A stretch of 64,000 nt of DNA from a virus: IMG/VR virus record IMGVR_UViG_3300022187_000025, positions 1 to 64,000 of that record; one strand, given 5' to 3'. The notes beneath the pieces are model-generated. The model had not been told where the DNA came from and did not search any database. It worked only from the letters and a program-made list of their open reading frames with translations. Positions 25,455 to 61,755 of this stretch are shown one piece after another. Made by a program: the position numbers and the translations under genes. The number at the start of each line of letters is the position of its first letter. The first letter of the stretch is position 1.

Positions 25455-26435
25455 CTATGCTATTTTAGCTATACTCATGCCCTTATGAGACTGTCTGGAA
25501 CCATACAAACACTTATTGACACCGGTTAAAGAAAACTCATTGTAAGTGTCTAGCATTTCAGGTATAGTAAAAAACAGAGTACACTTATTTTCCTCTTCTA
25601 CAAAGTATTTGAACTTTGTAGTCTTTTTAGCTCTGGTACGAGATTTAATCTTTTGTTCAAGTTCTTCTTTAGTATAAGCTAGAACATATCCATATACACG
25701 CTTACCATTTACAAGAGTATCTGTAGAACGAGGGTTTTTCTTATTAACTGAAGAAAGGAACTCCCTCTTACTTGAAAAATATTTGATAGCCCCCGTCTTT
25801 TTATTGTAGCCATAAAACCCCTTGGTCTTGTTTTCTACGTAAAAACCAGAGTTAACTTTTAGAGTATGCAAATAAACTTTAAAGGGCTTCTTTCCTTCAT
25901 GTACAAATATGATATCATTATGAGCTATTCTATTAAGCTTACTTTCTATAGTAGACCTATCAAGCTCTAATGCGTTAGCAGCTTCTTGTATAGAGTCAAA
26001 TTTATACATCTTTCTAGAACCTATCTTATAAACGTCTATAGCTCTTAGATGAGGAGCGCCTTTAGTCTTGAGTGTTTGTCTGAGGCTTCTGGAGATTTTC
26101 TTTTTAATAGCATCTGTATAGACATATGAGCCATTCTCATTTACTTCTACAATATTATATCCGTATTTGTCATTATACGACTCGAATATACTTTGCCAAT
26201 ATTTCTCTCTTGTAAATAAATCTTCTACATTTTCTACGTACTCTAATTTTTCAAATATAAAAGCTTCTTTCTTATACTTATTGTATGCATTTTGTAAATG
26301 ATAAGAATGATGCTTGTTGTTTTTTAAAGCGTTAAAGTGCTGGTATTTTCTTTTACGAATAACTTTAGAACTGCCAATGTACACTTTGTTATTGACGGTG
26401 TTTTTAATCATGTAAATACCTTGATCTTTGTTCAT
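25455..26435 (-). CDS. GIY-YIG homing endonuclease
   Basis: 326 residues from the ATG at 26435 (a longer TTG-started frame reaches into the promoter). The nuclease is at the N-terminus: GIYMIKNTVNNKVYIGSS gives GIY and YIG, K-R-K-Y-Q-H-F-N-A gives the basic/His region, and the E of FTREKYWQ the metal ligand. C-terminal parts include modular DNA-binding segments (Y-K-F-D-S-I-Q-E-A-A-N-A-L-E-L-D-R-S-T-I and a second of the type YGYNKKTGAI). It is free-standing at the left edge of the divergent region, with its own promoter. Confidence 0.88.
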   Translation of the reverse strand: MNKDQGIYMIKNTVNNKVYIGSSKVIRKRKYQHFNALKNNKHHSYHLQNAYNKYKKEAFIFEKLEYVENVEDLFTREKYWQSIFESYNDKYGYNIVEVNENGSYVYTDAIKKKISRSLRQTLKTKGAPHLRAIDVYKIGSRKMYKFDSIQEAANALELDRSTIESKLNRIAHNDIIFVHEGKKPFKVYLHTLKVNSGFYVENKTKGFYGYNKKTGAIKYFSSKREFLSSVNKKNPRSTDTLVNGKRVYGYVLAYTKEELEQKIKSRTRAKKTTKFKYFVEEENKCTLFFTIPEMLDTYNEFSLTGVNKCLYGSRQSHKGMSIAKIA

Positions 26436-26457
26436 GTCTAGTTGATTTTGATGTATA

Positions 26458-26488
26458 CAAAAATACAACTAATTATCTGAAAAACAAA
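26458..26488 (-). promoter_or_regulatory. Bacteroidetes-type promoter of the GIY-YIG gene
   Basis: TTTG (26485-26488), 19-base spacer and TATTTTTG (26458-26465) on the minus strand form a full consensus match. The -7 element is 23 bases before the ATG. Confidence 0.7.
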
Positions 26489-29346: not shown

Positions 29347-29351
29347 AACTT

Positions 29352-29455
29352 AAAGAAGTGGCGGAATTGGTAGACGCACGGTAGGAAACGGGCTAAGTAC
29401 TTGAGAGGTAAGTGATAATCTTAGCCAATTGCAGGTTCAAGTCCTGCCTTCTTTA
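29352..29455 (+). tRNA. tRNA-Leu-like gene (anticodon probably GAG), atypical anticodon region
   Basis: Acceptor AAAGAAG pairs with CTTCTTT. The D-arm GCG-GAATTGGTAGA-CGC is that of class II tRNA-Leu. The T-arm is GCAGG-TTCAAGT-CCTGC, with no encoded CCA. The 53-base centre is longer than usual by about 20. TTGAGAG gives a GAG anticodon with U33, but only a 3-bp TAC/GTA stem directly around it. Farther out GGCTAAG pairs with CTTAGCC over 7 bp, so the anticodon stem would be extended with a 3' bulge. It may be a functional variant, an interrupted tRNA or a decaying one. Confidence 0.55.
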
Positions 29456-29487
29456 CTATTATTTTAATTACTAAAACTCTAAATACA

Positions 29488-33781: not shown

Positions 33782-34264
33782 ATGAAAAGAATAGAAAAAA
33801 TTGCGATCGAAAGAGGTTATTTTGTAACAGAAGAAGGGTTATGTTACAGCAAAAGAGGCAATCAAGTGGGTTATATAAACAATGGATATTACAAAGTTGC
33901 TATAAAAATTAAAGGTCGTAATAAAAAATTTAGTATTCACAGAATACAAGCTTATCAAAAATACGGTGATAAAATCTTTGAAGCAGGTATTCAAGTTAGA
34001 CATCTAAATGGAAACCCTTTAGATAATTCTTGGGAAAATATTGCTATAGGTAATCAGTCTGAAAATCAAATGGATATCCCTGAGCAAATAAGAATAAAAA
34101 GAGCATTAATTGCTACATCTAAAGTACGTAAACACAAACACAAAGAGATTATAGACTATTATAATAAAGTAAAAAGTTATAATAAAACCATGAAAAAATT
34201 TAATATTTCTAGTAAAGGAACTTTGCATTTTATTATTAATAAGTCTTACTCATTAAAAAACTAG
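33782..34264 (+). CDS. HNH homing endonuclease
   Basis: 160 residues. The HNH core is at about 57-95: S-I-H-R-I-Q-A-Y, then V-R-H-L-N-G-N-P-L-D-N-S-W-E-N-I, then G-N-Q-S-E-N-Q, the standard HNH_3 order with His-Leu-Asn-Gly. A NUMOD4-like part precedes it (Y-F-V-T-E-E-G-L-C-Y-S). The C-terminal basic part ends in a helix-turn-helix-like segment (Y-N-K-T-M-K-K-F-N-I-S-S-K-G-T-L). It has its own host-type promoter, ends a few bases before a tRNA-like gene and is more A-rich than its neighbours, fitting a mobile insertion. Confidence 0.85.
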   Translation: MKRIEKIAIERGYFVTEEGLCYSKRGNQVGYINNGYYKVAIKIKGRNKKFSIHRIQAYQKYGDKIFEAGIQVRHLNGNPLDNSWENIAIGNQSENQMDIPEQIRIKRALIATSKVRKHKHKEIIDYYNKVKSYNKTMKKFNISSKGTLHFIINKSYSLKN

Positions 34265-36134: not shown

Positions 36135-36139
36135 ACAAA

Positions 36140-36170
36140 AGAGCAATTCTTAATTGAGTTGCTCTTTTTT
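36140..36170 (+). terminator. Rho-independent terminator before microprotein array 1
   Basis: AGAGCAA and TTGCTCT with a 12-base loop and TTTTTT. Array 1 starts 14 bases later, so it needs its own promoter or read-through. Confidence 0.8.
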
Positions 36171-36183
36171 AATCTAACAGCCT

Positions 36184-36336
36184 ATGATGAATGTAAAAAC
36201 ATTAATTGTTTTAGGTAATTATTCAAACAGGGATAAACATTATTATCCTCATGCTATAAAGGCATGGAATTTATTAGTTCACTGGCCTGTAAACACAGGA
36301 GATACTGAATCAATTAGAATAATATGCATGCTGTAA
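36184..36336 (+). CDS. RIIC-tail microprotein A1
   Basis: 50 residues, first of array 1, starting ATGATG 14 bases after a terminator. A central tryptophan pair lies in K-A-W-N-L-L-V-H-W-P, and the C-terminus is SIRIICML. Its tail overlaps the start of A2 by 13 bases. Function unknown. Confidence 0.65.
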   Translation: MMNVKTLIVLGNYSNRDKHYYPHAIKAWNLLVHWPVNTGDTESIRIICML

Positions 36337-36482
36337 TAGGATTGATAAGAACATTAGGCACATGTTCATGGAAATATGAACATGAAAGAGATGATATAGA
36401 GCTTAGAGCTTGGTTTATAATAAGTACATCTTCTTTACGTACAGATGATGTAGAAACAATAAGATCGATATGCGTAATATAA
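36324..36482 (+). CDS. RIIC-tail microprotein A2
   Basis: 52 residues; W at S-W-K-Y and A-W-F-I-I, acidic centre (E-H-E-R-D-D-I-E-L). The tail is TIRSICVI, the only copy with Ser in the third tail position. Overlaps A1 and A3 by 13 bases each. Confidence 0.65.
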   Translation: MHAVIGLIRTLGTCSWKYEHERDDIELRAWFIISTSSLRTDDVETIRSICVI

Positions 36483-36628
36483 CATTAATGTATAAGCTTA
36501 CTTCAGGTTTTTCATGGTTTTCAAATTCTATAGAAATTGATGCTTTGGAGTTTGGCCTTAGTGGAGATTCTAGCCCGCTTGATATCATGCTTAACGATGA
36601 AACAATCAGAATAATATGCAACTTATAG
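36470..36628 (+). CDS. RIIC-tail microprotein A3
   Basis: 52 residues; G-F-S-W-F-S core shared in part with A5 (G-F-S-W-F-F), tail TIRIICNL. Confidence 0.65.
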   Translation: MRNITLMYKLTSGFSWFSNSIEIDALEFGLSGDSSPLDIMLNDETIRIICNL

Positions 36629-36759
36629 TATATATAGGTGTCGAAGGAAGATTTACTTATGGGCGTGTAGGAGACAGACCTTTACAATGGATACTTGAAA
36701 ATGATAATAATATATTTTTTGATAGAGTAGAAACAATTAGAATACTATGTTACGTATAA
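36616..36759 (+). CDS. RIIC-tail microprotein A4
   Basis: 47 residues; P-L-Q-W-I-L core, tail TIRILCYV. The final TAC-GTA-TAA supplies L-R-I of the next gene in the other frame. Confidence 0.65.
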   Translation: MQLIVYIGVEGRFTYGRVGDRPLQWILENDNNIFFDRVETIRILCYV

Positions 36760-36890
36760 ATAGAATATGCAGAAAAGAAAATTATAGCTATAATTCAGGA
36801 GATATAGATTTCAATGGCTTTTCTTGGTTTTTTGAGCCTAATTGGCCTATTACTATGTCAATGACAACTAGAATAATATGCTACGTATAA
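36747..36890 (+). CDS. RIIC-tail microprotein A5
   Basis: 47 residues; begins MLRINRIC, core G-F-S-W-F-F-E-P-N-W-P, tail TTRIICYV. The internal RIC near the N-terminus echoes the tail. Confidence 0.65.
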   Translation: MLRINRICRKENYSYNSGDIDFNGFSWFFEPNWPITMSMTTRIICYV

Positions 36891-37021
36891 AACATTATAG
36901 ACTATTAGAGAATATTACTTACATGTCAACATTTGATAAACCTTGGAATAATTTTGATTGGTCTATTTTACGAATGAATCTTCCCTCAACAGTTGAAAAT
37001 AGAATAGTATGCGTTATGTAG
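36878..37021 (+). CDS. RIIC-tail microprotein A6
   Basis: 47 residues; begins MLRIKHYR, core N-F-D-W-S-I-L, tail ENRIVCVM. Confidence 0.65.
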   Translation: MLRIKHYRLLENITYMSTFDKPWNNFDWSILRMNLPSTVENRIVCVM

Positions 37022-37152
37022 ATAATTTAGTTTTAATAGGTTCAGAGAGATATGTAGAAAGGTTGTTTAAGCATAAGTCTACGTTTCATTGGAATTTAAT
37101 AGATATGGTCTTTCCAAGAGGTACTACAATTAGAATAATATGTTATATATAG
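37009..37152 (+). CDS. RIIC-tail microprotein A7
   Basis: 47 residues; core F-H-W-N-L-I-D-M, tail TIRIICYI. Confidence 0.65.
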   Translation: MRYVDNLVLIGSERYVERLFKHKSTFHWNLIDMVFPRGTTIRIICYI

Positions 37153-37277
37153 ATAAATATAGACTTTCTGGTTTTTCTTATTTCTTTAGAGATGAAAGTG
37201 TATTTCTTTTTAAGTGGTTTCTAATGGGTTGGATACTCCCTGAATCTTATACAATAAGAATAATATGCTACATATAA
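37140..37277 (+). CDS. RIIC-tail microprotein A8
   Basis: 45 residues, very aromatic; core F-K-W-F-L-M-G-W-I-L-P, tail TIRIICYI. Confidence 0.65.
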   Translation: MLYIDKYRLSGFSYFFRDESVFLFKWFLMGWILPESYTIRIICYI

Positions 37278-37381
37278 AATACTTTAAAGATGTTGGTAAA
37301 ACAGCGTATACAGACTTTTGGGTTTGGTCATGGCAATCTAGACCTGACTACTTTACAATAAGAATAATATGTAAATTATGA
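37265..37381 (+). CDS. RIIC-tail microprotein A9
   Basis: 38 residues, the shortest copy; core F-W-V-W-S-W-Q, tail TIRIICKL. The ATG inside its Cys codon meets a stop at once (ATGTAA). The polymerase instead starts at ATGATG overlapping the TGA of this gene. The Cys is kept although its overlapping ATG is useless here. Confidence 0.65.
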   Translation: MLHIKYFKDVGKTAYTDFWVWSWQSRPDYFTIRIICKL

Positions 37382-39237
37382 TGTATGGACATGACATAGA
37401 AGTATATCCTAACTTTTTTTGTACTACTATAGAAAACTATAATACAGGTGAGAAAGAAATACTAGAAATTAGTGAGTGGCAAGATGATTTAGATAAAATA
37501 GTATGGACATATAATACTGCCTTGCATAATGCAGAACTAGTTAGTTTTAATGGTATACACTATGATAGTCCTGTTATCAAATTTATAATAGTACAATACG
37601 ATAGTCTCAAACAATTACCTGTACATGAAATATGTGCAGAGATTGATAAATTTAGTCAGTATATTATACGTACTGATATGTGGTGGAGACAACAGAATCT
37701 TAAAAAGTACAAATACAATCATCCCTGGATTGATATAGATGTATATCTACACTGGTCTAGAATGCTCAGACTGAGTAAAAAGATTAGTTTGAAATCTTTA
37801 GGTATACAACTTGGATATCCTATAGTGCAAGAGCTGCCATATCCACCTGGTATGCATTTAAGTCGTAGTCAGGCTGAAGAAGTCAAACACTACAATTATG
37901 AGCATGATATGGGTATTATGCGTAAAATACTGTTTGATACCATCAGATGGCAAGGTAAACCTACTACAGTAGCAGAACAGATAGAACTTAGACGCAATAT
38001 TCAAAGAACATATAACCTTGATTGCTTGTCTTGGGATGCTCCTAAGATTGCATCTGAGATTATGCTTGATGAATATTGTAAACAAACAGGTGCAGACAAA
38101 TACGAAACTCGTAAAAGCACATACAATAGCAATGAATGTCTTGAACTACATAATCCAGAGTTTAAGCTTCATATTTTCAAGACATTATACACATCTATGC
38201 AATGTGCAGGTAGAGAATTTCATACAGAATTAAACTTTATACATAGAAATACTGCTATTAAATTGAGCTATGGTGTAGGTGGTATACATTCAGTAAACAA
38301 TAATGAAATATATACATCTGATAAGCACAATATTGTGTATACATCAGACGTAGGTTCACTATATCCAAATCTTATCATTAACTATGGTTTGATTAGACAG
38401 TCTGAAGTACTTAATAGTTACATACGTATCAAAGATGAACGTATGGAAGCTAAGCGTACAGGTGATGGAGCAAAGAATGTTACTCTAAAGCTTGTACTTA
38501 ATAGTCTGTCGGGTTTACTTGATAGTCCTTACTCATGGTTGTATTATCCAGAAGGAGCTATGAAGATGAGACTGCAAGGACAACTTGTACTCACTAAAAC
38601 TCTTGAAGATTTAGCTATTGCTGGTTTTCAGGTAGTCAGCTTGAATACAGACGGTCTTGAGTGTATAGTACCTGTCGATAGAGAACAAGAATACCTATCT
38701 ATAGTAGATAATGTAGGAAAAACATTTAATCTTGAATTTGAGCATGAGCAATATTCTAAAATATGCTATGCTAATGTAAATAACTATATTGCCATTAAAC
38801 CTAATGGTAAATACAAGACTAAAGGTTCAAGCTTTATAGAAAATCCTAATCTTGGTGATAGCTGTAATATGCTAATTGTACCAAAAGCTATAGTAAACTA
38901 TTTTAGAACAGGACAATCTGTAGACAGCTACATTAAAGGTGACCATCATATATTCAATTACTGTTTGTCTAAAAAAGTAGATAAAAGCTTTAAAGTTGTA
39001 TATGGAGATGAGGTTCTTCCTCAAAGATTAAATAGGTACTATGTAAGTAAGAAAGGAAAATACTTGTACAAGCTAAAGAACAATAAAAAGACCCATATGC
39101 TAAAAGGCTATGGTGTTAAACTGTATAACACTCATACTGATGAAGCTATATCTGACATAGATTACAGCTTTTATATTCATCAGGCTAACAGTATTATACA
39201 AACAATTGAAAGAAATAATCAACTAACAATCTTCTAA
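37378..39237 (+). CDS. Family B DNA polymerase
   Basis: 619 residues. Exonuclease motifs: Y-G-H-D-I-E-V-Y (Asp6, Glu8), the F-N-G-I-H-Y-D-S-P region (56-65) and Y-N-Y-E-H-D (173-177). Polymerase motif A is DVGSLYPNL (324-332), motif B K-L-V-L-N-S-L-S-G (371-379), motif C S-L-N-T-D-G-L-E (421-428) with Asn in place of the first Asp of DTD, as in several phage enzymes. It is shorter than cellular PolB (about 800) and like crAss-like PolB. It replicates the genome. Its start overlaps the last gene of microprotein array 1, so translation is probably coupled. Confidence 0.9.
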   Translation: MMYGHDIEVYPNFFCTTIENYNTGEKEILEISEWQDDLDKIVWTYNTALHNAELVSFNGIHYDSPVIKFIIVQYDSLKQLPVHEICAEIDKFSQYIIRTDMWWRQQNLKKYKYNHPWIDIDVYLHWSRMLRLSKKISLKSLGIQLGYPIVQELPYPPGMHLSRSQAEEVKHYNYEHDMGIMRKILFDTIRWQGKPTTVAEQIELRRNIQRTYNLDCLSWDAPKIASEIMLDEYCKQTGADKYETRKSTYNSNECLELHNPEFKLHIFKTLYTSMQCAGREFHTELNFIHRNTAIKLSYGVGGIHSVNNNEIYTSDKHNIVYTSDVGSLYPNLIINYGLIRQSEVLNSYIRIKDERMEAKRTGDGAKNVTLKLVLNSLSGLLDSPYSWLYYPEGAMKMRLQGQLVLTKTLEDLAIAGFQVVSLNTDGLECIVPVDREQEYLSIVDNVGKTFNLEFEHEQYSKICYANVNNYIAIKPNGKYKTKGSSFIENPNLGDSCNMLIVPKAIVNYFRTGQSVDSYIKGDHHIFNYCLSKKVDKSFKVVYGDEVLPQRLNRYYVSKKGKYLYKLKNNKKTHMLKGYGVKLYNTHTDEAISDIDYSFYIHQANSIIQTIERNNQLTIF

Positions 39238-39248
39238 ACAATCAAGTT

Positions 39249-39890
39249 ATGGAATTTACATTTGGAGCACAGCCTGTTGTCACACAGACTGACCATGAGT
39301 TGCCACCATTTGTGGAACTTACTAATGAGTATATTGAAGTACTTAAGCCAGAGAACTTTAACAGTAGGTTCTTTGCTGCAATCTATCCTACTAGCCATAA
39401 TCAATGGGCTAAGTTCTGTATTGCTACAGGACGTACACTCCCGTCAGATTCAGGCTTTGGTAGGGGAAATCTACCAGTAGCTAATATCAGAGATATTGAC
39501 GTGTGTCACTATCTAAACTGGCTTACTGAAGTTACTAAAGTAGGTGAGATGGATGCTAATCACGAACATGCAGACAAAACATTTGCTGAATATAATGTTT
39601 TTCTTGGATTACCTGAATTACCATATGTCATTAATGATGATGGGGTATTTCTATCAGATATTAATGTGAAAGGCTTTAGACTTCCCTCAGTAGATGAGTG
39701 GGAGTTCCTTAAAGCAGATGCAGAAGACCAGATTAAAGAGCATGGTCTTGATGCAGTAGCTGTCCATCCTGGTAATAGTGGGCAAAAACCTGCACTGCCT
39801 GGAACCAAGATGCCAAATAAATATGGTCTGTATGACATGATTGGTAACTTTCTTGAAGTATGTGTAGAGTATGTAACTAAAAAAGATTAA
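39249..39890 (+). CDS. FGE-sulfatase/C-type-lectin-like fold protein
   Basis: 213 residues. The C-terminal half carries GFRLPSVDEWEFLKAD and later N-K-Y-G-L-Y-D-M-I-G-N-F-L-E-V, which match the G-x-R-L-P-T-E-x-E-W-E and N-x-x-G-L-Y-D-M-x-G-N-V-x-E-W signature of formylglycine-generating-enzyme-like domains. An active-site Cys pair is not evident (C at 57, 87, 205), so a binding role is more likely than catalysis. The same fold is used by retroelement-diversified proteins, but no reverse transcriptase or template repeat is seen here. It follows the polymerase by 11 bases. Confidence 0.65.
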   Translation: MEFTFGAQPVVTQTDHELPPFVELTNEYIEVLKPENFNSRFFAAIYPTSHNQWAKFCIATGRTLPSDSGFGRGNLPVANIRDIDVCHYLNWLTEVTKVGEMDANHEHADKTFAEYNVFLGLPELPYVINDDGVFLSDINVKGFRLPSVDEWEFLKADAEDQIKEHGLDAVAVHPGNSGQKPALPGTKMPNKYGLYDMIGNFLEVCVEYVTKKD

Positions 39891-39894
39891 GTCT

Positions 39895-40635
39895 ATGAAT
39901 CCTAGCAAACTGAGTTTTACAATCGACAATGTGCCTATCAAGTTTGATATGTTCTGTAGCATTATGAAAGCCAGATATGATACTACAGCTGAAATGTACA
40001 GAGAAGAAACAGACATCTTTGAGCCTAAGAAGATCAAAGGTACGAATCTTAACATGGAGCATATTAATGCTTACAATAAGGCACTGGAGGAGCTAAAGAG
40101 CTTCTTAGATGATATTTGGGCTTCAGTAGAAGCTATTGACTTTAAGGCAGCCAGTCATATTGAGAATATAGACCTGCGCCGTATTGCTTTCTTCTATATT
40201 GGGCCTGCTCAAATGTTCAATAATATAGAGAACAAAAAGAAAGTAGATACTTTCAACTTTGAGCCTGATAACAGGGAGTCTAACATAGGTGATACATATC
40301 ATTTATGGTCTATCAGCCCAAAAGAACTAGGCTTTGAAGACAGGCGTAGAGATGTGTTTGCTATTCAGTTCTGGTGTCCTTCTACTCACAGAGAGTATTG
40401 GGCAACTGTAGATGACAGAGAAAACTTTTGCCAGCAGGGTAGCTATTCTGTCAAAGACGCAGTAGCTTGGCTGTGTGAAATCACACACGACAAAAAGCAG
40501 ATTAAAGAGATCAATCGTCAAGGTGAGGTCTATACAGTTACTTACGATGTTAAAGATAGTTCTGAGCTAAAACCTGTCACACCTTACTATTTGTCTGGAG
40601 ATGAGTTCTTTAAGCTCATTAATCAGCAGACTTAA
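39895..40635 (+). CDS. Unrecognised protein
   Basis: 246 residues, soluble, mixed alpha/beta, no recognised family. It includes R-R-I-A-F-F-Y-I-G-P-A-Q-M-F, D-T-Y-H-L-W-S-I-S-P-K-E-L-G-F and a C-terminal T-P-Y-Y-L-S-G-D-E-F. It follows the FGE-like gene by four bases, so the two are probably co-expressed. Function unknown. Confidence 0.55.
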   Translation: MNPSKLSFTIDNVPIKFDMFCSIMKARYDTTAEMYREETDIFEPKKIKGTNLNMEHINAYNKALEELKSFLDDIWASVEAIDFKAASHIENIDLRRIAFFYIGPAQMFNNIENKKKVDTFNFEPDNRESNIGDTYHLWSISPKELGFEDRRRDVFAIQFWCPSTHREYWATVDDRENFCQQGSYSVKDAVAWLCEITHDKKQIKEINRQGEVYTVTYDVKDSSELKPVTPYYLSGDEFFKLINQQT

Positions 40636-40963: not shown

Positions 40964-41007
40964 TTATTTTTTTAACCAAGCTGGTTATTGGTAAACAAGA
41001 CCCTGAT

Positions 41008-41037
41008 GTCCTTAATTGGATGTCAGGGTTCTTTAAT
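41008..41037 (+). terminator. Hairpin terminator before microprotein array 2
   Basis: CCCTGA..TCC and GGA..TCAGGG pair around TTAATT, followed by TTCTTTAATTT. Array 2 starts 13 bases later; array 1 also starts shortly after a terminator. Confidence 0.6.
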
Positions 41038-41049
41038 TTATGCTGAACT

Positions 41050-41187
41050 ATGTTAAGAATTATTTTTTATGAGTCATTTATAAACAAACAGTTGATTAGC
41101 TTTAATGCACGTTTCTTTACCAATATAGATAAGAACAAGTATGTAAGCTTTCTTAGCAGCACAAATAGAGTTATATGCTACATATAA
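41050..41187 (+). CDS. RIIC-tail microprotein B1
   Basis: 45 residues; begins MLRIIFYE even though no upstream member overlaps it, so the MLRI start is kept for its own sake or is inherited. Tail TNRVICYI. No Trp. Confidence 0.6.
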   Translation: MLRIIFYESFINKQLISFNARFFTNIDKNKYVSFLSSTNRVICYI

Positions 41188-41315
41188 AGACTTTTTTAAC
41201 CTATACAAGACTTTGGATAACATACTCTCATAAAGAGATTTTATTAGATCAAAAGTTTGGTGTATTTCTTCACTTTAGTTTAGATGAATCATTAAGAATA
41301 TGCTGTCATTTATAG
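41175..41315 (+). CDS. RIIC-tail microprotein B2
   Basis: 46 residues; core T-R-L-W-I-T-Y, tail SLRICCHL with a double Cys and one residue less between Arg and the conserved Cys-x-x end than strict RIxC. Confidence 0.6.
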   Translation: MLHIKTFLTYTRLWITYSHKEILLDQKFGVFLHFSLDESLRICCHL

Positions 41316-41419
41316 CAAAAGGTACTCGTCATTACTTACTCAATTTTAAATTCCAGTCTTTTGCACTTAAATACTTGAGACAAAGATACACAAACTATAG
41401 AATAATATGTCAACTATAA
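41300..41419 (+). CDS. RIIC-tail microprotein B3
   Basis: 39 residues, basic, no Trp, tail NYRIICQL. Confidence 0.6.
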   Translation: MLSFIAKGTRHYLLNFKFQSFALKYLRQRYTNYRIICQL

Positions 41420-41538
41420 TAAAATGTATAACAAAAGTATATGACTCATACAGTTATAAATGGTATGAAGATAATGTTTTTATAAATACTTCTTTAGAAA
41501 TACGAGACAAATCAAACAGAATATTATGCTATGTATAA
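41407..41538 (+). CDS. RIIC-tail microprotein B4
   Basis: 43 residues; core Y-S-Y-K-W-Y-E-D, tail SNRILCYV. Confidence 0.6.
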   Translation: MSTIIKCITKVYDSYSYKWYEDNVFINTSLEIRDKSNRILCYV

Positions 41539-41654
41539 AACGGCTTATAAGCTATCCAAAATTTCCATCTTATAATTTTGAATACAGCAATAATCATTGG
41601 GTAATGGCAATGAGAATAGATGACCAATCAATAAGAATATTATGTCACTTATAA
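41526..41654 (+). CDS. RIIC-tail microprotein B5
   Basis: 42 residues; core N-N-H-W-V-M-A-M-R-I, tail SIRILCHL. The ATG in its Cys codon opens only a 12-codon dead frame (41642). Confidence 0.6.
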   Translation: MLCIKRLISYPKFPSYNFEYSNNHWVMAMRIDDQSIRILCHL

Positions 41655-41664
41655 TAGTAAACAA

Positions 41665-41832
41665 ATGCTGGAAGACTTGAATGGTGCATATATTGCAGTT
41701 ATACCTGCATATATGCTTGAGATTGAATTAGAAAGATTAGTTACAGATATGAAAGGTTACTATATAGTAGCTAAGAATGATGGATTCTATCACATACTAG
41801 TGTATGTGTGGAATAAAACGTTTGAAGTATGA
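41665..41832 (+). CDS. Unrelated small gene inside array 2
   Basis: 55 residues, acidic N-terminal half, then beta-like (G-Y-Y-I-V-A-K-N-D-G-F-Y-H-I-L-V-Y-V-W-N-K). It lacks the RIxC tail. Its start is 10 bases after the stop of B5 and its TGA overlaps the ATG of B7 (41829). It seems to replace one array unit. Confidence 0.55.
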   Translation: MLEDLNGAYIAVIPAYMLEIELERLVTDMKGYYIVAKNDGFYHILVYVWNKTFEV

Positions 41833-41963
41833 TAAAACTACTCAATTGTATTAAAGCATACACATGCTATTTGTCAATGGGTAATTTATTTAAATACTCT
41901 TTTGTTTATGGTGGAAACTTTGGATATACAGACACTACAATACGTACTATATGCATACTATAA
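41829..41963 (+). CDS. RIIC-tail microprotein B7
   Basis: 44 residues; tail TIRTICIL. Arg is encoded by CGT instead of the AGA of most copies, a synonymous change that points to selection on the residue. Confidence 0.6.
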   Translation: MIKLLNCIKAYTCYLSMGNLFKYSFVYGGNFGYTDTTIRTICIL

Positions 41964-42097
41964 ATTGTTTTAGATTTATTCTGTTTGAAACTTTTGATAA
42001 TTTGTTTGAGGGAATAGATGCAATACTAGAAAGTCGTAAGATTATACATGCTGTGCTTAACAGCAATACTACAATGAGAATGATATGTTACATGTAA
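41951..42097 (+). CDS. RIIC-tail microprotein B8
   Basis: 48 residues, no Trp, helical appearance, tail TMRMICYM. Confidence 0.6.
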   Translation: MHTINCFRFILFETFDNLFEGIDAILESRKIIHAVLNSNTTMRMICYM

Positions 42098-42231
42098 ATG
42101 AATGTTTATTTCTTTACTACAACCATGAAGATTTTGAAGCTGAATTAGCTGATTGGAACAAATGGCCTTACCATGATAATTTCTTAGAAAGGTCTTATTG
42201 GTTAACAAATAGAATAATCTGCATTACATAG
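42085..42231 (+). CDS. RIIC-tail microprotein B9
   Basis: 48 residues; cores A-D-W-N-K-W-P and S-Y-W-L, tail TNRIICIT. The Ile codon before Cys is ATC, so the overlapping ATG has been lost; no array member follows. The retained R-I-I-C indicates constraint on protein, not only on the junction DNA. Confidence 0.6.
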   Translation: MLHVNECLFLYYNHEDFEAELADWNKWPYHDNFLERSYWLTNRIICIT

Positions 42232-43039
42232 ACTCAAACTTAATATCTACATCTTTTTCTGTAGGTGTAAGCTTGAGTAGCCATGAACCTATATTCTTAG
42301 GTACAGCTATTCTTTCTACTCCAAAACCTTTAGTAGTCAAAAACTCATCTTTATAAGTACCACACTTAATGTGATGCTGTTTAGTAATACTTACTTCACC
42401 ATTTTGTCGCAGATTTAATCTAGGTACAGGTACATAAAATTCAGAATGTGTGTGACCTGAGACAATAATATCTGCTTGTGGTACAGAAAGTCCATGTTTA
42501 TTAACTGAACTGGTTATACTGCCCCATTTACCATGATGGAAATAGAGAAGACATGACCTTACTTTAGAACCATTGTTGTGAAAGATAAACTTTATAAATC
42601 CATGATAACCCATAGTATTTAGTCCTTTGAGACGTAATGCTAAGTTATGCAATGGATCAATTTCATTTCTTTCAATAACGCGGCTTTCGTGATTACCTAA
42701 GCTAATCATACCCAAAGTCTTTTTGTAAGGTTTGAGTTTATCCGCCGTATCGTCAAGTACAGCATCAAGATAATTGCTCTTGTTATGCTCTGGTCTGATC
42801 TTAGATTTATCACTACGCAGGTCGTATTTTCCCTGCATTAAACAGAGGAAATCACCAAAGATTAAGCTTTTACCATTAAGGCTTTTAATCTTGTCCAGAT
42901 GGCTAAAGAAGAGCTTTTGGTCTGAGTCTGGATTATCGAAGTGAACATCTGAGCATAAATGAAAATAGGAAGAAGTCCTCATTGATCTGTATGGAATACG
43001 TATTTCCATGTATAGATCATTAATCTTATTGATCTGCAT
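42224..43039 (-). CDS. Calcineurin-like metallophosphatase
   Basis: 271 residues. Metal ligand motifs in order: S-D-V-H-F-D (D-x-H), I-F-G-D-F-L (GD), S-L-G-N-H-E-S-R (GNHE), Y-F-H-H-G-K and S-G-H-T-H-S-E. These define a two-metal phosphoesterase; the substrate (nucleic acid end, nucleotide or protein) cannot be read from sequence. It is the only leftward gene in the right 38 kb and lies between microprotein arrays 2 and 3, overlapping the last gene of array 2 by 8 bases. With its own promoter it has the look of a moron gene. Confidence 0.85.
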   Translation of the reverse strand: MQINKINDLYMEIRIPYRSMRTSSYFHLCSDVHFDNPDSDQKLFFSHLDKIKSLNGKSLIFGDFLCLMQGKYDLRSDKSKIRPEHNKSNYLDAVLDDTADKLKPYKKTLGMISLGNHESRVIERNEIDPLHNLALRLKGLNTMGYHGFIKFIFHNNGSKVRSCLLYFHHGKWGSITSSVNKHGLSVPQADIIVSGHTHSEFYVPVPRLNLRQNGEVSITKQHHIKCGTYKDEFLTTKGFGVERIAVPKNIGSWLLKLTPTEKDVDIKFESM

Positions 43040-43097: not shown

Positions 43098-43220
43098 ATG
43101 CGAAAACTAGGATTTAAACAATGCTTGAACTATAACTTTGAGTGTTCTTTTTCTAATAGATGGTTTCCAATTACTTTATTTATAAGAATAGACACAATTA
43201 GGCCAGTATGCTACGTATAA
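43098..43220 (+). CDS. RIIC-tail microprotein C1
   Basis: 40 residues; core N-R-W-F-P-I-T, tail TIRPVCYV with Arg encoded by AGG. Confidence 0.6.
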   Translation: MRKLGFKQCLNYNFECSFSNRWFPITLFIRIDTIRPVCYV

Positions 43221-43348
43221 TGATAGTTAGTCCTAAAGGAGTTAACTATATACATAAAACAAGGTTTTCTTTTAAATATAGGCTGATTCTTTGGTTTATT
43301 AGAAGATTAAACAGAGTACAAACATTCAAAACAGTATGCTACATATAA
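43208..43348 (+). CDS. RIIC-tail microprotein C2
   Basis: 46 residues, very basic; core L-I-L-W-F-I-R-R, tail TFKTVCYI, the only copy with Lys in place of Arg. Confidence 0.6.
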   Translation: MLRIMIVSPKGVNYIHKTRFSFKYRLILWFIRRLNRVQTFKTVCYI

Positions 43349-43476
43349 GTTACACAACATATGGATTTATAGTATTAGATCATTATTACTGGACTACGTA
43401 TAGGTATGTAGCAATATTAAGTATAATGGAATATCACGATAACGGATTTACAAATAGAATAATATGTATATTTTAA
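43336..43476 (+). CDS. RIIC-tail microprotein C3
   Basis: 46 residues; core H-Y-Y-W-T-T-Y-R-Y, tail TNRIICIF. Confidence 0.6.
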   Translation: MLHISYTTYGFIVLDHYYWTTYRYVAILSIMEYHDNGFTNRIICIF

Positions 43477-43601
43477 ATCACTCTGCTTTATATGGTGAGC
43501 ACGTATATGACTGGTCATTTGAACCAGGATGGGATTTCCATGATTTTTATAGCCATGCAGGAGCTTGGTTTATTACAAATAGAATATTATGTGTAATATA
43601 G
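43464..43601 (+). CDS. RIIC-tail microprotein C4
   Basis: 45 residues; cores Y-D-W-S-F-E-P-G-W and G-A-W-F, tail TNRILCVI. W-S-F-E-P recalls W-F-F-E-P of A5. Confidence 0.6.
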   Translation: MYILNHSALYGEHVYDWSFEPGWDFHDFYSHAGAWFITNRILCVI

Positions 43602-43738
43602 AAATAGTTACAGCAATAACTTTTTACTGTCATAGTAACTACAGATCTGTGTTTTACCATGAAGAACGGGAAGACCCTTACTACAGTAGATTCATACCAC
43701 CTTCAGACAACACAATAAGAATAGTATGTTACTGTTAA
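43589..43738 (+). CDS. RIIC-tail microprotein C5
   Basis: 49 residues; no Trp, acidic centre (H-E-E-R-E-D-P-Y-Y), tail TIRIVCYC with a final Cys. Confidence 0.6.
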   Translation: MCNIEIVTAITFYCHSNYRSVFYHEEREDPYYSRFIPPSDNTIRIVCYC

Positions 43739-43866
43739 ATAAACTTTATGATAGTTATAATTTTAGATGGTCATCAGTTTATCTAGACCACACAATTACT
43801 TGTGTCAAACATTGGAGCCAAGTAAACTATCAGTTTGCATCAAATAGAATAGTATGTTTTGTATAA
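43726..43866 (+). CDS. RIIC-tail microprotein C6
   Basis: 46 residues; cores F-R-W-S-S-V-Y and K-H-W-S-Q, tail SNRIVCFV. Confidence 0.6.
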   Translation: MLLLNKLYDSYNFRWSSVYLDHTITCVKHWSQVNYQFASNRIVCFV

Positions 43867-43997
43867 ATATGATTTATGGTACTAGGTTAGTATGGGCTAA
43901 CCGTTATAGGGAAGAACCAGAAGATTGGGTTAAAGTTTATGAGTGGGATATATCAGGTCTTGATGCTTTATCAAATAGAATACTATGCTACTTATAA
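43854..43997 (+). CDS. RIIC-tail microprotein C7
   Basis: 47 residues, acidic, three Trp (L-V-W-A, D-W-V-K, E-W-D-I), tail SNRILCYL. Confidence 0.6.
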   Translation: MFCINMIYGTRLVWANRYREEPEDWVKVYEWDISGLDALSNRILCYL

Positions 43998-44116
43998 AGA
44001 CTAAACTTTACAAAAAAGCAAGCTATATAGATTTATTTCATTTTAATGCTGCTGGGTGGACAAGAGCTGGCTTTCGAGCCAGAAGAATTTCAAACAGAAT
44101 ACTATGTTATATCTAA
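43985..44116 (+). CDS. RIIC-tail microprotein C8
   Basis: 43 residues, basic; core A-G-W-T-R-A-G-F-R-A-R, tail SNRILCYI. Confidence 0.6.
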   Translation: MLLIKTKLYKKASYIDLFHFNAAGWTRAGFRARRISNRILCYI

Positions 44117-44241
44117 AATATTACTGTTTCTTTTATCCTTTATTTAGATATGAATACAAGTATTACAATAGAACAGCATACTCTATTCCAGATAGAGCAA
44201 TTGATTTAACTTTAAGCAACAGAATAATATGCAGACTATGA
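44104..44241 (+). CDS. RIIC-tail microprotein C9
   Basis: 45 residues, Tyr-rich, no Trp, tail SNRIICRL. An in-frame ATG at 44056 exists, but the junction geometry supports 44104. Its TGA overlaps ATG 44238 of the helicase frame. Confidence 0.6.
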   Translation: MLYLKYYCFFYPLFRYEYKYYNRTAYSIPDRAIDLTLSNRIICRL

Positions 44242-45518
44242 AAAGAAATATAGAAAGACTGAATTACCATCAAGACCAAGCTGTAGAAGCTTGGGTACAA
44301 AATAACTATGTAGGTACATGGATGCTGTTTCCTGGTGCTGGTAAAACTATAGCTTCCCTGAAGGCTGCATATAGATTGCTGGAAGATGGAAAGATCAATA
44401 AAGGAGATACTATTGTATTTCTGGCAGAGACTATAGTACGTGAAAAGACATTGTTTGAAGATGAAATACCTAAGTTTAAAAGCCTGTTTGATAAAGACCC
44501 TGTAGCTGATTTTAACATTCAGTTCAGATGCTATCAAGCTATGCCTGTGGAAGAGTTTAATAACTTTGAAAACATAGGTTTACTGGTAGCAGATGAAATT
44601 CAAGATGGCTTGTCAGCTAAGTATAGTGAGAATATAATAAACAACAAGTGTAAGCATGTTGTTGCATTGACTGGAGCTATGTCTTTAGACCAGCACGTAT
44701 ATCCTCAAGACATACAGGATAATGCTGACCTTCTTACAATTTATCAGACAGATGCAGAAACTAAAAGAGGAGAGATTACAGAGTTTATTAGTAAGGGGCA
44801 ATTGCTATCTATGTATATTCCTGTAGTATACAAAGTAGAGACTAAACAGGCTATTGAAGAAGGTATGATTGCTAAGTATCAAACTTGGATAATCAATCAC
44901 CATCTGGATACTCAAGACAGATCAATCAAGATATGGAAGAGCTATGATACATTAGGTACAGAGCAAGAGTATTATCTAAAGAAAGATAACTTCAGAAAGG
45001 ATTTTCGTAAACCAAAGTATCTTAAGATGGCTATTGGTAGAGAATTAACTACCTTTCTGTACAATCTGAAGTCCAAAGTAGCTACAACAAAAGCTTTACT
45101 GAGTACACTATCTGGTAAGACACTCATATTTGGTGAACGTCTTGATATACTAGAGAATATATGCCCTGTAGTCAGATCAGATAATGCGCTAGAGTTGATT
45201 GAAAAATTCAATAGTGGAGAAGAACCTGTTATTGCTTCCAGTAAAATGCTTAAACAAGGTATTACATTGGAAGGAGTGCAGAATATTATCTTCTTCAGCT
45301 ATAGCTCTAAGTGGCATAATATGGAACAACGTAGAGCTAGAATCAGATGGGTTGAAGGTGTAGCTAATCTGTACTTTATAGTCACCCAAGGTACTCTTGA
45401 AGAAAAATGGTTTGATAAGTTAAAGAAAGAAAAAGGCATGCGTGGAGAATTAATCCAAGAGCATGACTTGAATATTGTTGGACATTACGATAGCAGAGTA
45501 TTGCTGTCTCAAAATTAG
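44229..45518 (+). CDS. SF2 (DEAD-like) helicase
   Basis: 429 residues from 44229, or 426 from the ATG at 44238. Motif Q-like N-Y-H-Q-D-Q-A-V (12-19), Walker A F-P-G-A-G-K-T (34-40), motif II L-V-A-D-E-I-Q-D (DEIQ), motif III A-L-T-G-A-M, and in the second domain ASSKMLKQGITLEGVQNIIF and M-E-Q-R-R-A-R-I-R-W (motif VI). This is a UvsW/RecG-neighbour type of SF2 enzyme as found in crAss-like phages. Likely roles are remodelling of replication or recombination intermediates. Translation is linked to microprotein array 3. Confidence 0.85.
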   Translation: MQTMKRNIERLNYHQDQAVEAWVQNNYVGTWMLFPGAGKTIASLKAAYRLLEDGKINKGDTIVFLAETIVREKTLFEDEIPKFKSLFDKDPVADFNIQFRCYQAMPVEEFNNFENIGLLVADEIQDGLSAKYSENIINNKCKHVVALTGAMSLDQHVYPQDIQDNADLLTIYQTDAETKRGEITEFISKGQLLSMYIPVVYKVETKQAIEEGMIAKYQTWIINHHLDTQDRSIKIWKSYDTLGTEQEYYLKKDNFRKDFRKPKYLKMAIGRELTTFLYNLKSKVATTKALLSTLSGKTLIFGERLDILENICPVVRSDNALELIEKFNSGEEPVIASSKMLKQGITLEGVQNIIFFSYSSKWHNMEQRRARIRWVEGVANLYFIVTQGTLEEKWFDKLKKEKGMRGELIQEHDLNIVGHYDSRVLLSQN

Positions 45519-51514: not shown

Positions 51515-52057
51515 ATGCGTACTATTAAAGTATTTTCCACTCGCAATGGATCAACTACTCCTATCCAGACAGATGTAACCACATTTGGAGAGTTGAAAGA
51601 AGTTCTGGATGCTAATGACATTGAGTTCAACAGCTCTCTGAAAGCTATTGAGTCTGTCAACAATACAAGCCTTGAGCTTAACAACTCAGCTCTACCTGAA
51701 GGAGATTTTATCTTGGGCTTGTTTCCAAAGAAAACTAAAGCAGGCAGCTTGCGTACAGATTTGTATACTCGTATTAAAGAGTTTATTCAGCGTGATGGAA
51801 AAGAGGCTGTCAATAACTTCTTTAATGAGCAGGCAGGGCGTCACTACACTAACATTAGTACTGAAGATTTGGAAAGCTATGTTGACCAGTATGATACTGA
51901 GCAAACAACTCCAGCTACTCTTGAAGAGAAACTTCGTGCATGTGGAGTAGATCCTACTATTATTGAGAAAGTTATTGGCATGTCTACAGATGAGCGTACA
52001 GAGGAAGAAGCTTGGGCAGAAGAGATTTGTTCAGCACATGATGAGCTTTCTTGCTAA
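51515..52057 (+). CDS. Ubiquitin-like beta-grasp protein with C-terminal extension
   Basis: 180 residues. Residues 1-77 follow the beta-grasp plan: hairpin R-T-I-K-V-F-S-T with P-I-Q-T-D-V, helix F-G-E-L-K-E-V-L-D-A-N, strand A-I-E-S-V-N, last strand G-D-F-I-L-G-L-F followed by P-K-K-T-K-A-G. PRTRC-C-like ubiquitin homologues have a similar fold and T-K-G ending. After Gly77 comes a 103-residue acidic helical extension. A JAMM peptidase encoded two genes on could cut after Gly to expose a conjugable end; that is inference. Confidence 0.6.
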   Translation: MRTIKVFSTRNGSTTPIQTDVTTFGELKEVLDANDIEFNSSLKAIESVNNTSLELNNSALPEGDFILGLFPKKTKAGSLRTDLYTRIKEFIQRDGKEAVNNFFNEQAGRHYTNISTEDLESYVDQYDTEQTTPATLEEKLRACGVDPTIIEKVIGMSTDERTEEEAWAEEICSAHDELSC

Positions 52058-52078
52058 GAATTTCTTATAAAATATTAG

Positions 52079-52107
52079 GCAGAGGTGTAACAGCCTCTGC
52101 TTATTTT
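52079..52107 (+). terminator. Hairpin terminator after the ubiquitin-like gene
   Basis: GCAGAGG and CCTCTGC with a short loop, followed by TTATTTT. Partial termination would give more modifier than enzymes. Confidence 0.65.
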
Positions 52108-52121
52108 AAATAAGTGAAAAC

Positions 52122-53036
52122 ATGATTGAAGAATTTTTTGGAGAAGATAATGTAGATGAAAATGGTAGTGAGTATACAATAGAACTGGATGATTTTTATG
52201 TACATAATAAAAGAGGAGATAAACATCTTATTAAAGGTATGTACTTACGGCTTAATTATTATACTCAAGAGGATAAGCATTATTTGAGAAATCTTCAAGG
52301 CATTAGGACTATTCAGTCTAATATAGAATGGTATACAAGTTTTACTCATCCACATTTACCTACTCGTAGAATTAATGCTATAGAGTTTGAAGATTTTTGT
52401 AAAGGCGATGGGGCATTTAGTATGCAGTACGCTCAGGTAAATTCAGGAGTTACAGAAGATGAAATGTATGCTTTTCTAATGCACTTGCGTTACTTTCTGA
52501 CTTATCAGGATGACAGTAACCCATATACCAGAATAGAGAATGTTTTTCCTATTACTACTCCTCCTGAGTATTCTTATTTTCCACAGCTTAGAGACACTCT
52601 ATACGACTATCCTCAAATACAAAAACTTATATTTGACAAGGATTATCAACTGGTAGATAATAAACATAACCATGATTTACTACTTGAAATCTATGAAGGT
52701 TCAGCCCCTACATGCCATTATATTAATGGAGAGTATGTAGCATTTAATTATGCTACTTCTAAAGTAGTACTTGACCCATTTGTAGTATTATGGTTTAAAG
52801 GAAAACCTGTACAAGGACAAATATATCAGCAGGAAACAAGTGTTAAGCCAGAGGAAGGCAGCCTACGTATTAATCCATCTATATTTAAAATAATCAGTAA
52901 TGAACTCAGTAAAAAGCTTCGAGAGCAAATCTCAGAAGAAAGCATTAAAGCAAGTCAGCAAGAAGCAACGCTTTTCATTGACAGTATCAGACAAATGTCT
53001 GAACCAGATCAAGTATTTATGCTCAAGAATTTCTAA
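52122..53036 (+). CDS. E2-like (UBC/RWD-fold) protein candidate
   Basis: 304 residues. At 73-99 the segment S-F-T-H-P-H-L-P, then F-E-D-F-C-K-G-D-G, recalls the H-P-H-[VIL] and C-x-G stretch of prokaryotic E2-like proteins in ubiquitin-like and PRTRC operons; Cys93 would be the thiol-accepting residue. N-terminal strands (E-Y-T-I-E-L-D-D-F-Y-V, Y-L-R-L-N-Y) fit the UBC sheet. The C-terminal 130 residues are an extra domain. It lies between the modifier and the JAMM gene, as E2 genes do in such cassettes. Confidence 0.5.
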   Translation: MIEEFFGEDNVDENGSEYTIELDDFYVHNKRGDKHLIKGMYLRLNYYTQEDKHYLRNLQGIRTIQSNIEWYTSFTHPHLPTRRINAIEFEDFCKGDGAFSMQYAQVNSGVTEDEMYAFLMHLRYFLTYQDDSNPYTRIENVFPITTPPEYSYFPQLRDTLYDYPQIQKLIFDKDYQLVDNKHNHDLLLEIYEGSAPTCHYINGEYVAFNYATSKVVLDPFVVLWFKGKPVQGQIYQQETSVKPEEGSLRINPSIFKIISNELSKKLREQISEESIKASQQEATLFIDSIRQMSEPDQVFMLKNF

Positions 53037-53955
53037 AGTAGAATGGTCTGGTATTTTATTCTATACAGTAGATAAAGGAGACATAGAATCAGAGAATCTG
53101 GAAATGACAGCTGAGTTTGTTTATCCTATGTCTAAAGATACTACAGCTGCTACAGGTTTTGAATACAACGAAGATGTTATGCAATTTATGATGCAACATC
53201 CAGAGTGTATGAACATGCGACAGGGTATGATACACAGCCATCACAGTATGAATTCCTATTTCAGTCAGACTGATATGTCAGAGCTTGCAGATAATTGCGA
53301 AAATCATCAATTTTATTTAAGCATGGTAGTTAACAATGCTACTGATATAGTAGCTAAAGTAGGTATACATGTAGAGCAAGAGTATAAAATTCATGGTAGT
53401 AGAAATTTAATGGGTATGAAAGGTAAATTAAGATTGCCTTTTACACAAACTATCAAAGAGACTGTACTGGAACATTATGATTGTGATATTTATACTTATG
53501 AACCTGAAGTAGAGAAATGGTTTAAAGATAGAACAGATAAGATTATAGAAGATGCTAAGCCTAAGAAGGTCGTTGGTTTTAATAGTCCAAAAGAGTTTGT
53601 TAGTTCAGCATGGACTTGGGATAACGTAGCATCTGACTTACGCCCTTACAATACTTCTAATGAAGCTATCTTTATTGCCAAATATCTTAAGGGTGATTTA
53701 GATTATGATGGTACTATTTATAAAGCACTTGAAGAAATTAATAAGTCTACTCAAGAAAAAGATAAGTTCATTCAGGCTATGGTAGAAGGCTTTGATTATT
53801 TCTATGATGAGTTTTTTGAGACTGATGGGCATCAACTGGATGTACTATCTAAACTAAGCTACTATCTGGATCAATGGCAACAGAAATTCAGAAAAGCACA
53901 TGACATTATGTATTCAGTAATTACAGAATTAACAACAGGATATGAACCACGATAG
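52900..53955 (+). CDS. JAMM/MPN+ metallopeptidase (deubiquitinase-like)
   Basis: 351 residues from ATG 52900, which overlaps the previous gene by 137 bases; a TTG at 52978 (325 residues) would cut this to 59. The JAMM signature is complete: Glu48 in V-E-W-S-G, then I-H-S-H-H-S-M-N-S-Y-F-S-Q-T-D with His112, His114, Ser122 and Asp125. Such zinc peptidases cut ubiquitin-like proteins after the terminal Gly. The C-terminal 180 residues are unrecognised and acidic. Placement between E2-like and E1-like genes supports the modifier-processing role. Confidence 0.8.
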   Translation: MNSVKSFESKSQKKALKQVSKKQRFSLTVSDKCLNQIKYLCSRISKVEWSGILFYTVDKGDIESENLEMTAEFVYPMSKDTTAATGFEYNEDVMQFMMQHPECMNMRQGMIHSHHSMNSYFSQTDMSELADNCENHQFYLSMVVNNATDIVAKVGIHVEQEYKIHGSRNLMGMKGKLRLPFTQTIKETVLEHYDCDIYTYEPEVEKWFKDRTDKIIEDAKPKKVVGFNSPKEFVSSAWTWDNVASDLRPYNTSNEAIFIAKYLKGDLDYDGTIYKALEEINKSTQEKDKFIQAMVEGFDYFYDEFFETDGHQLDVLSKLSYYLDQWQQKFRKAHDIMYSVITELTTGYEPR

Positions 53956-54580
53956 TTTTAAAGGAGCAAGCTGGTACGATGATATTCGTAAACAACAAGT
54001 ACTTGTAATAGGTGCAGGTGGAACAGGCTCATGGCTAACTCTATTATTAGCCAGAGCTGGAGTTACAAACCTGGCTGTATATGACGATGATTTGATAGAG
54101 TCCAGAAATAATAGTGGGCAATTTTTTAAACTTAATCAGGTTGGACAACCCAAAGTTGAAGCTTTGAAAACCAACGTGAAAGAGTTTACAGATGTAGAGA
54201 TAATCACATTGCAAGAGAAGTATACAGCTAATTCTATGGTAGCACCTATTATGTGTAGTATGGTAGACAATATGGCTACACGAAAGATTGCATTTGATAA
54301 ATGGAAGAGATATGAGAATAAGAGTTTGTTTATAGATGTCAGACTAGACTTTGAACAGTCAGATATATTTATTGTAGATGAATCGAGTATAGAAAAGTAT
54401 GAGAGTACACTGTTTGATGATTCAGAAGTAACTGATCCAGTCTGTACTATGAAGCAGACTACTCATATTGCATTCCATGTAGCGCATGCTGTAGAAGGAT
54501 TAATTAACTATGTAGCTGGCAGACCGTATAAATTTAGAACTACTAATGTAACATCGATGAGTTATGTGGAGTTTGAATGA
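53942..54580 (+). CDS. E1-like (ThiF/MoeB family) activating enzyme
   Basis: 212 residues. The Rossmann nucleotide site is V-L-V-I-G-A-G-G-T-G-S (20-30), then Y-D-D-D-L-I-E-S-R-N-N with Asp and Arg for ATP, Q-V-G-Q-P-K-V-E-A-L, and C-S-M-V-D-N-M-A-T-R with the conserved D-N. Cys168 in D-P-V-C-T-M-K could form the thioester. It is shorter than most ThiF proteins (about 240). It overlaps both neighbours, so the cassette is tightly coupled. Adenylation of the modifier at 51515 is the expected reaction. Confidence 0.8.
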   Translation: MNHDSFKGASWYDDIRKQQVLVIGAGGTGSWLTLLLARAGVTNLAVYDDDLIESRNNSGQFFKLNQVGQPKVEALKTNVKEFTDVEIITLQEKYTANSMVAPIMCSMVDNMATRKIAFDKWKRYENKSLFIDVRLDFEQSDIFIVDESSIEKYESTLFDDSEVTDPVCTMKQTTHIAFHVAHAVEGLINYVAGRPYKFRTTNVTSMSYVEFE

Positions 54581-61745: not shown

Positions 61746-61755
61746 AACATTAGCT

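Follow-up and report, generated by a model that had tools for sequence, protein, structure and literature searches.

What kind of phage locus is built from tandem microgenes that overlap at their ends and encode proteins alike only in their last residues? We addressed this question in a 64,000-nt stretch of the virus record IMGVR_UViG_3300022187_000025 (the window), which holds three arrays with 26 tandem ORFs in all, each encoding 38-52 aa. The source is an uncultured crAss-like phage, whose major capsid protein matches PF23898 (Crass_capsid, E 2.2e-49) and whose portal, polymerase and primase match phage families. The best matches for the polymerase and the major capsid protein are crAss-like records at identities of only 20-31%, indicating that the phage belongs to a distant crAss-like lineage. 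A 103-kb record, IMGVR_UViG_3300034374_005666 (L008), represents the same phage, and the shared 22 kb are 100% identical except for one 121-bp stretch. This stretch (29350-29470), absent from L008, contains a tRNA at 29352-29455 (104 nt; Rfam RF00005) that was missed by ARAGORN.

All 26 copies are encoded on the plus strand. Array 1, which the initial annotation had described as nine genes of 38-52 residues joined by 13-base overlaps, was re-found at exactly 36184-37381, with nine ATG-initiated ORFs of 38-52 aa and eight junctions of 13 nt. Its copies, all ending in R-[IS]-[ILV]-C-x-x-stop, are 36184-36336 (50 aa, tail SIRIICML), 36324-36482 (52 aa, TIRSICVI), 36470-36628 (52 aa, TIRIICNL), 36616-36759 (47 aa, TIRILCYV), 36747-36890 (47 aa, TTRIICYV), 36878-37021 (47 aa, ENRIVCVM), 37009-37152 (47 aa, TIRIICYI), 37140-37277 (45 aa, TIRIICYI) and 37265-37381 (38 aa, TIRIICKL). 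Array 2 (41050-42231) has eight copies, namely 41050-41187 (45 aa, TNRVICYI), 41175-41315 (46 aa, SLRICCHL), 41300-41419 (39 aa, NYRIICQL), 41407-41538 (43 aa, SNRILCYV), 41526-41654 (42 aa, SIRILCHL), 41829-41963 (44 aa, TIRTICIL), 41951-42097 (48 aa, TMRMICYM) and 42085-42231 (48 aa, TNRIICIT), and is split by a 55-aa plus-strand ORF unrelated to the copies (41665-41832). Array 3 (43098-44241) comprises nine copies: 43098-43220 (40 aa, TIRPVCYV), 43208-43348 (46 aa, TFKTVCYI), 43336-43476 (46 aa, TNRIICIF), 43464-43601 (45 aa, TNRILCVI), 43589-43738 (49 aa, TIRIVCYC), 43726-43866 (46 aa, SNRIVCFV), 43854-43997 (47 aa, SNRILCYL), 43985-44116 (43 aa, SNRILCYI) and 44104-44241 (45 aa, SNRIICRL). 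In the three arrays taken together, 21 pairs of neighbouring copies overlap by 13 nt and one pair (41175/41300) by 16 nt. The counts given previously for the tail were recovered, with Cys third from the end in 26/26 copies and Arg at position -6 in 25/26, the exception being the Lys of 43208-43348; the last tail residue is hydrophobic in nearly all 26 copies.

Two of the arrays run directly into replication genes. The DNA polymerase gene (PHROG 1252; 37378-39237, plus strand) translationally adjoins array 1, its start overlapping the last copy by 4 nt (ATGA), and a DEAD/ResIII-type helicase gene (44229-45518, plus strand) translationally adjoins array 3, the last copy of which stops at the helicase start, either the embedded ATG at 44229 or the ATGA at 44238. 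Downstream of the polymerase, on the same strand, lie genes for an FGE-sulfatase-like protein (PF03781; 39249-39890) and a 246-aa protein (39895-40635), and an antisense calcineurin-like phosphoesterase gene (42224-43039, minus strand) lies between arrays 2 and 3 and shares 8 nt with the last copy of array 2. Strong terminator-like hairpins on the plus strand, with the same TTAATT loop, lie immediately 5' of the first ATG of array 1 (36137-36168, z -4.5) and of array 2 (40999-41030, z -5.3). A sigma-70 promoter scan gave background level only.

The array bodies contain no in-frame stop codon in ~900 codons, as compared with 194/1750 (11%) in the other two frames, which at the local stop density has a probability of ~1e-36, and the annotated frame scores best by codon usage in 20/26 copies. 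These data indicate that the window arrays encode real microproteins, as the initial annotation had proposed. Stop-codon recoding was considered and rejected, TAA, TGA and TAG each terminating large genes within the window. The bodies of the 26 copies are rich in aromatic residues; Trp makes up 3.8% of body residues versus 1.4% in the other genes of the phage, and at least one Trp was counted in 20/26 copies, in line with the earlier remark that most copies carry it. Within the window the bodies have only a faint common pattern (leave-one-out p 0.005; 2/26 above threshold).

Searches of the window copies against PHROG, Pfam, NCBIfam, PADLOC and PDB were empty or at noise level; PHROG and Pfam gave no homology of the units to known phage takeover proteins, and the units resembled no known inhibitor or defence protein. 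AlphaFold2 with paralogue alignments yielded pLDDT values of 51 and 49 and no usable fold. A profile of the 26 copies found no other array in the 103-kb L008. A DNA pattern of three tails matched, in IMG/VR, the same phage and chance matches only, the latter resembling T4-type cyanophage structural genes, and among 85k bacterial and archaeal genomes it gave 20 matches, none with an array on ORF inspection. Neither the family libraries nor the profile and pattern searches yielded the window family outside this phage, which agrees with the earlier view that no described family has this layout. No description of such arrays was found in the literature covered, which excludes most subscription papers. 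As for a RiPP context, no maturation enzyme matched PF04055 over threshold; the window phage has a spore photoproduct lyase (SPL)-like gene 17 kb away, and its FGE-like protein, which co-occurs with the arrays, stops short of the C-terminal portion of the domain. The SPL-like gene is a radical-SAM gene at 61720-62571 (PF20903, E 4e-12).

The shared tail is explained to a large extent by the geometry of the overlap. The ATG of the next gene takes its A from the last position of the [ILV] codon and its TG from the start of the Cys codon (nTA|TGY), and Cys (or Trp) is therefore obligatory wherever the next gene starts in the tail; the same geometry mostly forces residue 4 of the next copy to I, L or V. 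When the genes were aligned on their stops, the conserved DNA formed a sharply bounded block that covers nothing but the terminal 26 nt. Given the amino acids, and with the codon usage of the bodies as expectation, the codons at T/S (ACA/TCA), Arg (AGA) and Ile (ATA) are more uniform than predicted (p 0.0002-0.0004); such uniformity beyond amino-acid needs was absent at the N/I codon (codon 7) and at the Cys codon. Relative to the next start, A occupies position -3 in 81%, -6 in 90%, -12 in 95% and -9 in 19% of the window junctions, and A at -11 and -3 also occurs in other array lineages. Ribosome profiling of Flavobacterium johnsoniae, whose phylum initiates without Shine-Dalgarno sequences, has shown that initiation is favoured by A at -3, -6, -12 and -13 (PMC6847099). 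Since the invariant synonymous A positions match the Kozak-like positions of Flavobacterium johnsoniae, we conclude that the tail carries a translation-initiation context. A generic start context was rejected as the whole explanation, because elsewhere in the phage the start context of genes is merely loosely A-rich and lacks the G and C that are fixed in the block. We also considered a -1 frameshift polyprotein, since the next gene is always in the -1 frame and the tails in a related array (L107, below) read TTA AAA; this was rejected, as conservation is lacking at the first slippery base and the tail in the window has no slippery sequence.

Nevertheless, geometry does not account for every tail residue. 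Arg is kept through three codons (AGA; CGT in 41829-41963; AGG in 43098-43220), with Lys as the single exception, and Cys is kept in three copies without a usable embedded start, namely 37265-37381, where the embedded ATG is dead (ATG TAA), 41526-41654, where it leads into nothing but a short dead frame, and 42085-42231, where ATC TGC supplies no ATG. From this handful of cases, the Arg codons and the Cys at array ends, we conclude with moderate confidence that a peptide-level constraint on the tail persists. Taken together, the tail is at least partly, and in our reading largely, an embedded translation-initiation junction with some protein-level constraint remaining. The fixed tail of the initial annotation is thus present in the copies, and its fixity is partly forced by the next ATG in nTA|TGY.

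An ORF-chain search of polymerase relatives revealed comparable arrays of ~18-53 units, with different tails, in four other crAss-like genomes, which is new here. L107 (3300036770_003758) has ~53 units in 6.3 kb, L108 (also L061; IMGVR_UViG_3300037502_002220) ~46 units and L110 (also L077 and L063; 3300002835_000319) ~30 units, all with the tail LK[HYQ][IV]P, and L109 (3300037502_001422) has ~18-20 units in two blocks with the tail SITIL/YFITLL. The overlaps in these arrays are mostly 4 nt (ATGA), also 1, 7, 10 and 19 nt, and most preserve the same relative frame for the next gene. The base after ATG-TG determines the fate of the upstream gene, A giving its stop (TGA), C or T giving Cys and G giving Trp; the Cys is therefore positional, the slot being stop, Cys or Trp by that base. 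All five array genomes hold arrays of at least nine linked units, and ~45 other polymerase loci had no such array and no chain of more than five linked units; neither four array-less relatives nor Cellulophaga phage phi14:2 had a chain above five. The whole or nearly whole genomes of the array-bearing phages contained no further array, and alignment scans with the 246-aa gene and the helicase found no additional array phage.

In the window phage and in L107, L108 and L110 the FGE-like gene sits next to the array; it is found in 4/5 array records and 0/23 other records, and a homologue of the 246-aa gene flanks the array in L110 (33% identity). These two neighbours link the array loci to one another. 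Profile similarity between the L107 and L110 arrays is significant (p 1e-8 to 1e-14) via the tail, and homology of the window units to those of other lineages is not (best p 0.03); convergence could be responsible for the architecture and synteny that the window has in common with the other arrays. The polymerase of the window phage is ~33% identical to that of the array clade and up to 50% identical to those of array-less relatives, and relatives at 40-50% identity had no array; polymerase exchange or repeated loss must therefore be assumed.

Several further genes were recorded in these genomes. The array-linked FGE-like genes (39249-39890 in the window; L107:226-1056; L110:1828-2673) are without the C-terminal part of the domain, and the L107 and L108 records carry a second, full-length FGE gene. 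A possible ubiquitin-like/PRTRC-type module at 51515-54580 of the window includes a protein that looks beta-grasp by eye (51515-52057), a weak JAB-domain match (52900-53955) and ThiF/E1 (53942-54580, E 1e-21); similar genes apparently also occur in relatives such as L010, and L109 has a RadC-like JAB gene within its array region. An intein-like insertion in a terminase-like gene and several homing-endonuclease-like genes were noted by eye (17205-20519, 10849-11919, 25455-26468, 33782-34264).

Selection on the units was estimated in the sister phages L107 and L108, whose flanks are ~87% identical and which share 39 collinear microgene pairs. For the 35 pairs with at least 50% identity, with the first three and the last codons omitted because of the overlap, the body dN/dS was 0.34 (bootstrap 0.28-0.42), compared with 0.10 for the flanking AAA gene and 0.05 for the polymerase, indicating that these microgenes are constrained yet fast-evolving. 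No positive selection of the arms-race kind was seen, dN/dS exceeding 1 in 3/35 microgenes. The tail dN/dS in the same pairs of this related lineage was 0.39 (CI 0.24-0.67), away from the value near 1 that had been named as refuting the proposed family. The collections contain no diverged orthologue of the window's own copies, the one relative being 100% identical, and dN/dS is therefore borrowed from a related lineage; constraint on the window's own copies is presumed by analogy with a sister pair whose tail differs.

The same sisters reveal unit turnover. Fourteen units are private to L107 and seven to L108, and the clear whole-unit indels end at both sides exactly on AAAAYACAnACCATGA junctions. 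Adjacent duplicates at 40-60% body identity, for instance in L107 (5283/5402, 59%) and L109 (1804/1962, 52%), point clearly to tandem duplication with later divergence; dN/dS between paralogues is too noisy at microgene length, except for adjacent duplicates. Both unit gain/loss and duplicates, the hallmarks of birth-and-death evolution, were thus found in the L107/L108/L109 lineages; the earlier description of tandem growth with divergent bodies is supported.

We propose, giving it somewhat better than an even chance, that the locus is a birth-and-death array of real, fast-evolving microproteins, most likely host-directed accessory proteins, in a group of crAss-like phages. Each unit is an ORF of 30-60 aa whose last codons include the next start codon and an A-rich Kozak-like context. 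A ribosome would end one unit 0-10 nt past the next start and re-initiate there, as the A-rich context lies just upstream. Because relative frame and context are alike at almost all junctions, units would be interchangeable and could be swapped, duplicated or deleted without breaking the chain or altering the expression of their neighbours. Selection would retain each peptide and permit fast change, the bodies diverging because the units probably do different jobs. With replication genes adjoining the arrays, the units would be made alongside replication proteins and might act on host or defence targets, a job suggested as the most likely one by position, size, turnover rate and the lack of homologues. 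The hosts of the array phages are probably Bacteroidota. The model joins features computed here (coding, junction geometry, start context, constraint, unit gain/loss and recurrence in relatives) to a translational coupling in vivo, a host target and a function that we infer. In crAss001, the genes of the replication module belong to the middle class of transcripts and not to the earliest one (review PMC10136315), a timing that counts against the host-directed model because the arrays sit in the replication module.

Other readings assign the tail or the units a different role. The initial annotation regarded the bodies as variable recognition parts and the tail as a common element for docking or targeting; on this reading R-[IV]-[ILV]-C-x-[ILV]-COOH would be selected as protein and bind one shared partner. 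This accords with the retention of Arg through AGA, CGT and AGG with one Lys, of Cys at 37265, 41526 and 42085 despite a missing or dead embedded start, and of a hydrophobic last residue in nearly all copies, as well as with a sister-phage tail dN/dS below 1. However, Cys is forced by geometry in most copies and thus mostly a by-product of the embedded start, the tails are lineage-specific (LKxIP, SITIL) and some lack Cys or a basic residue, the tail dN/dS is not below that of the body, and the synonymous homogeneity coincides with the initiation positions. A universal docking tail is therefore rather unlikely. Still less likely, in our estimate, are subunits of one large assembly, such as a replisome accessory, a DNA-binding coat or a compartment, with the tail strand as common contact: the copy number varies by tens of units among relatives and turns over between sisters, and close polymerase relatives replicate without any array, even though the arrays are co-directional with and adjoin polymerase and helicase genes and their products share a tail and aromatic-rich bodies.

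The uniform junctions, and the arrays running into the polymerase and helicase starts by ATGA or an embedded ATG, would also suit a translational timer or leader, in which coupled re-initiation through many short frames controls how much polymerase and helicase is made, the peptides themselves being of little importance. We consider this improbable, because the bodies in the sister pair are under purifying selection (dN/dS 0.34) and in L107 the next gene starts ~100 nt past the array. A cassette system served by its own recombinase, in which the junction would be an integron-like recombination site and not an initiation signal, is more improbable again. The clear whole-unit indels do end at the repeated junction, but ordinary homologous recombination or slippage over 13-26 nt repeats suffices for this; the junction is short and A-patterned, and neither a tyrosine recombinase/integrase (PF00589) nor a reverse transcriptase of a diversity-generating retroelement (PF00078) was present in the five array records. 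Finally, the array bodies are unlike one another, which with little else would favour a non-coding repeat or chance ORFs, a reading contradicted by stop-codon depletion, codon usage and dN/dS and to be given almost no weight.

Beyond the birth-and-death array proposed above, we suggest tentatively, at somewhat less than an even chance, that the arrays form an undescribed type of phage locus, in which the C-terminal codons are the initiation module of the next gene and a phage could keep, enlarge and reshuffle dozens of independent, interchangeable 30-60 aa inhibitors in one co-translated chain. Gene callers easily overlook arrays such as these, with up to ~53 overlapping genes of ~37 codons, which represent a large, testable reservoir of constrained microproteins in a widespread phage order. 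They are also a natural case of dual coding, for a protein tail and a ribosome start context, by which genes can become modular. Should the function prove to be host-directed, every unit would be a candidate inhibitor, acting on a bacterial process or defence.

Among known systems, the host-takeover module of Bacillus phage SPO1 (genes 37-60), with ~26 mostly small early genes of which several are host-toxic (PMC6873191), is similar in clustering many small phage genes without housekeeping homologues (26 units here), and the small size, lack of homologues, turnover and patchy presence among related phages resemble takeover or counter-defence genes. In contrast to the several operons with own promoters in SPO1, the arrays form one long chain of 30-60 aa units, in which start and stop are embedded at a repeated junction; both the bodies and the number of copies are subject to turnover, the arrays are located in the replication module, and their host-directed role is putative. 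Tandem birth-and-death families likewise have duplicates at graded divergence and unit gain and loss between sister phages, whereas the bodies here diverge past sequence recognition and only the gene junction is fixed. Integron cassette arrays also consist of short interchangeable units with a repeated junction between them, but the array records have no integrase or attC-like long element, and the junction lies within coding sequence and carries a start codon. The Crassvirales isolate Cellulophaga phage phi14:2 shares the order-level genes (polymerase, helicase, primase and crAss-type portal and capsid) and differs in having scattered small ORFs and no linked array above the detector threshold. 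The junction itself is paralleled by Kozak-like initiation in Bacteroidetes (Flavobacterium johnsoniae), in which A precedes the start at positions -3, -6 and -12 and there is no Shine-Dalgarno sequence (PMC6847099); in the arrays, by contrast, the context is written into the C-terminal codons of the preceding gene and recurs at 21 junctions.
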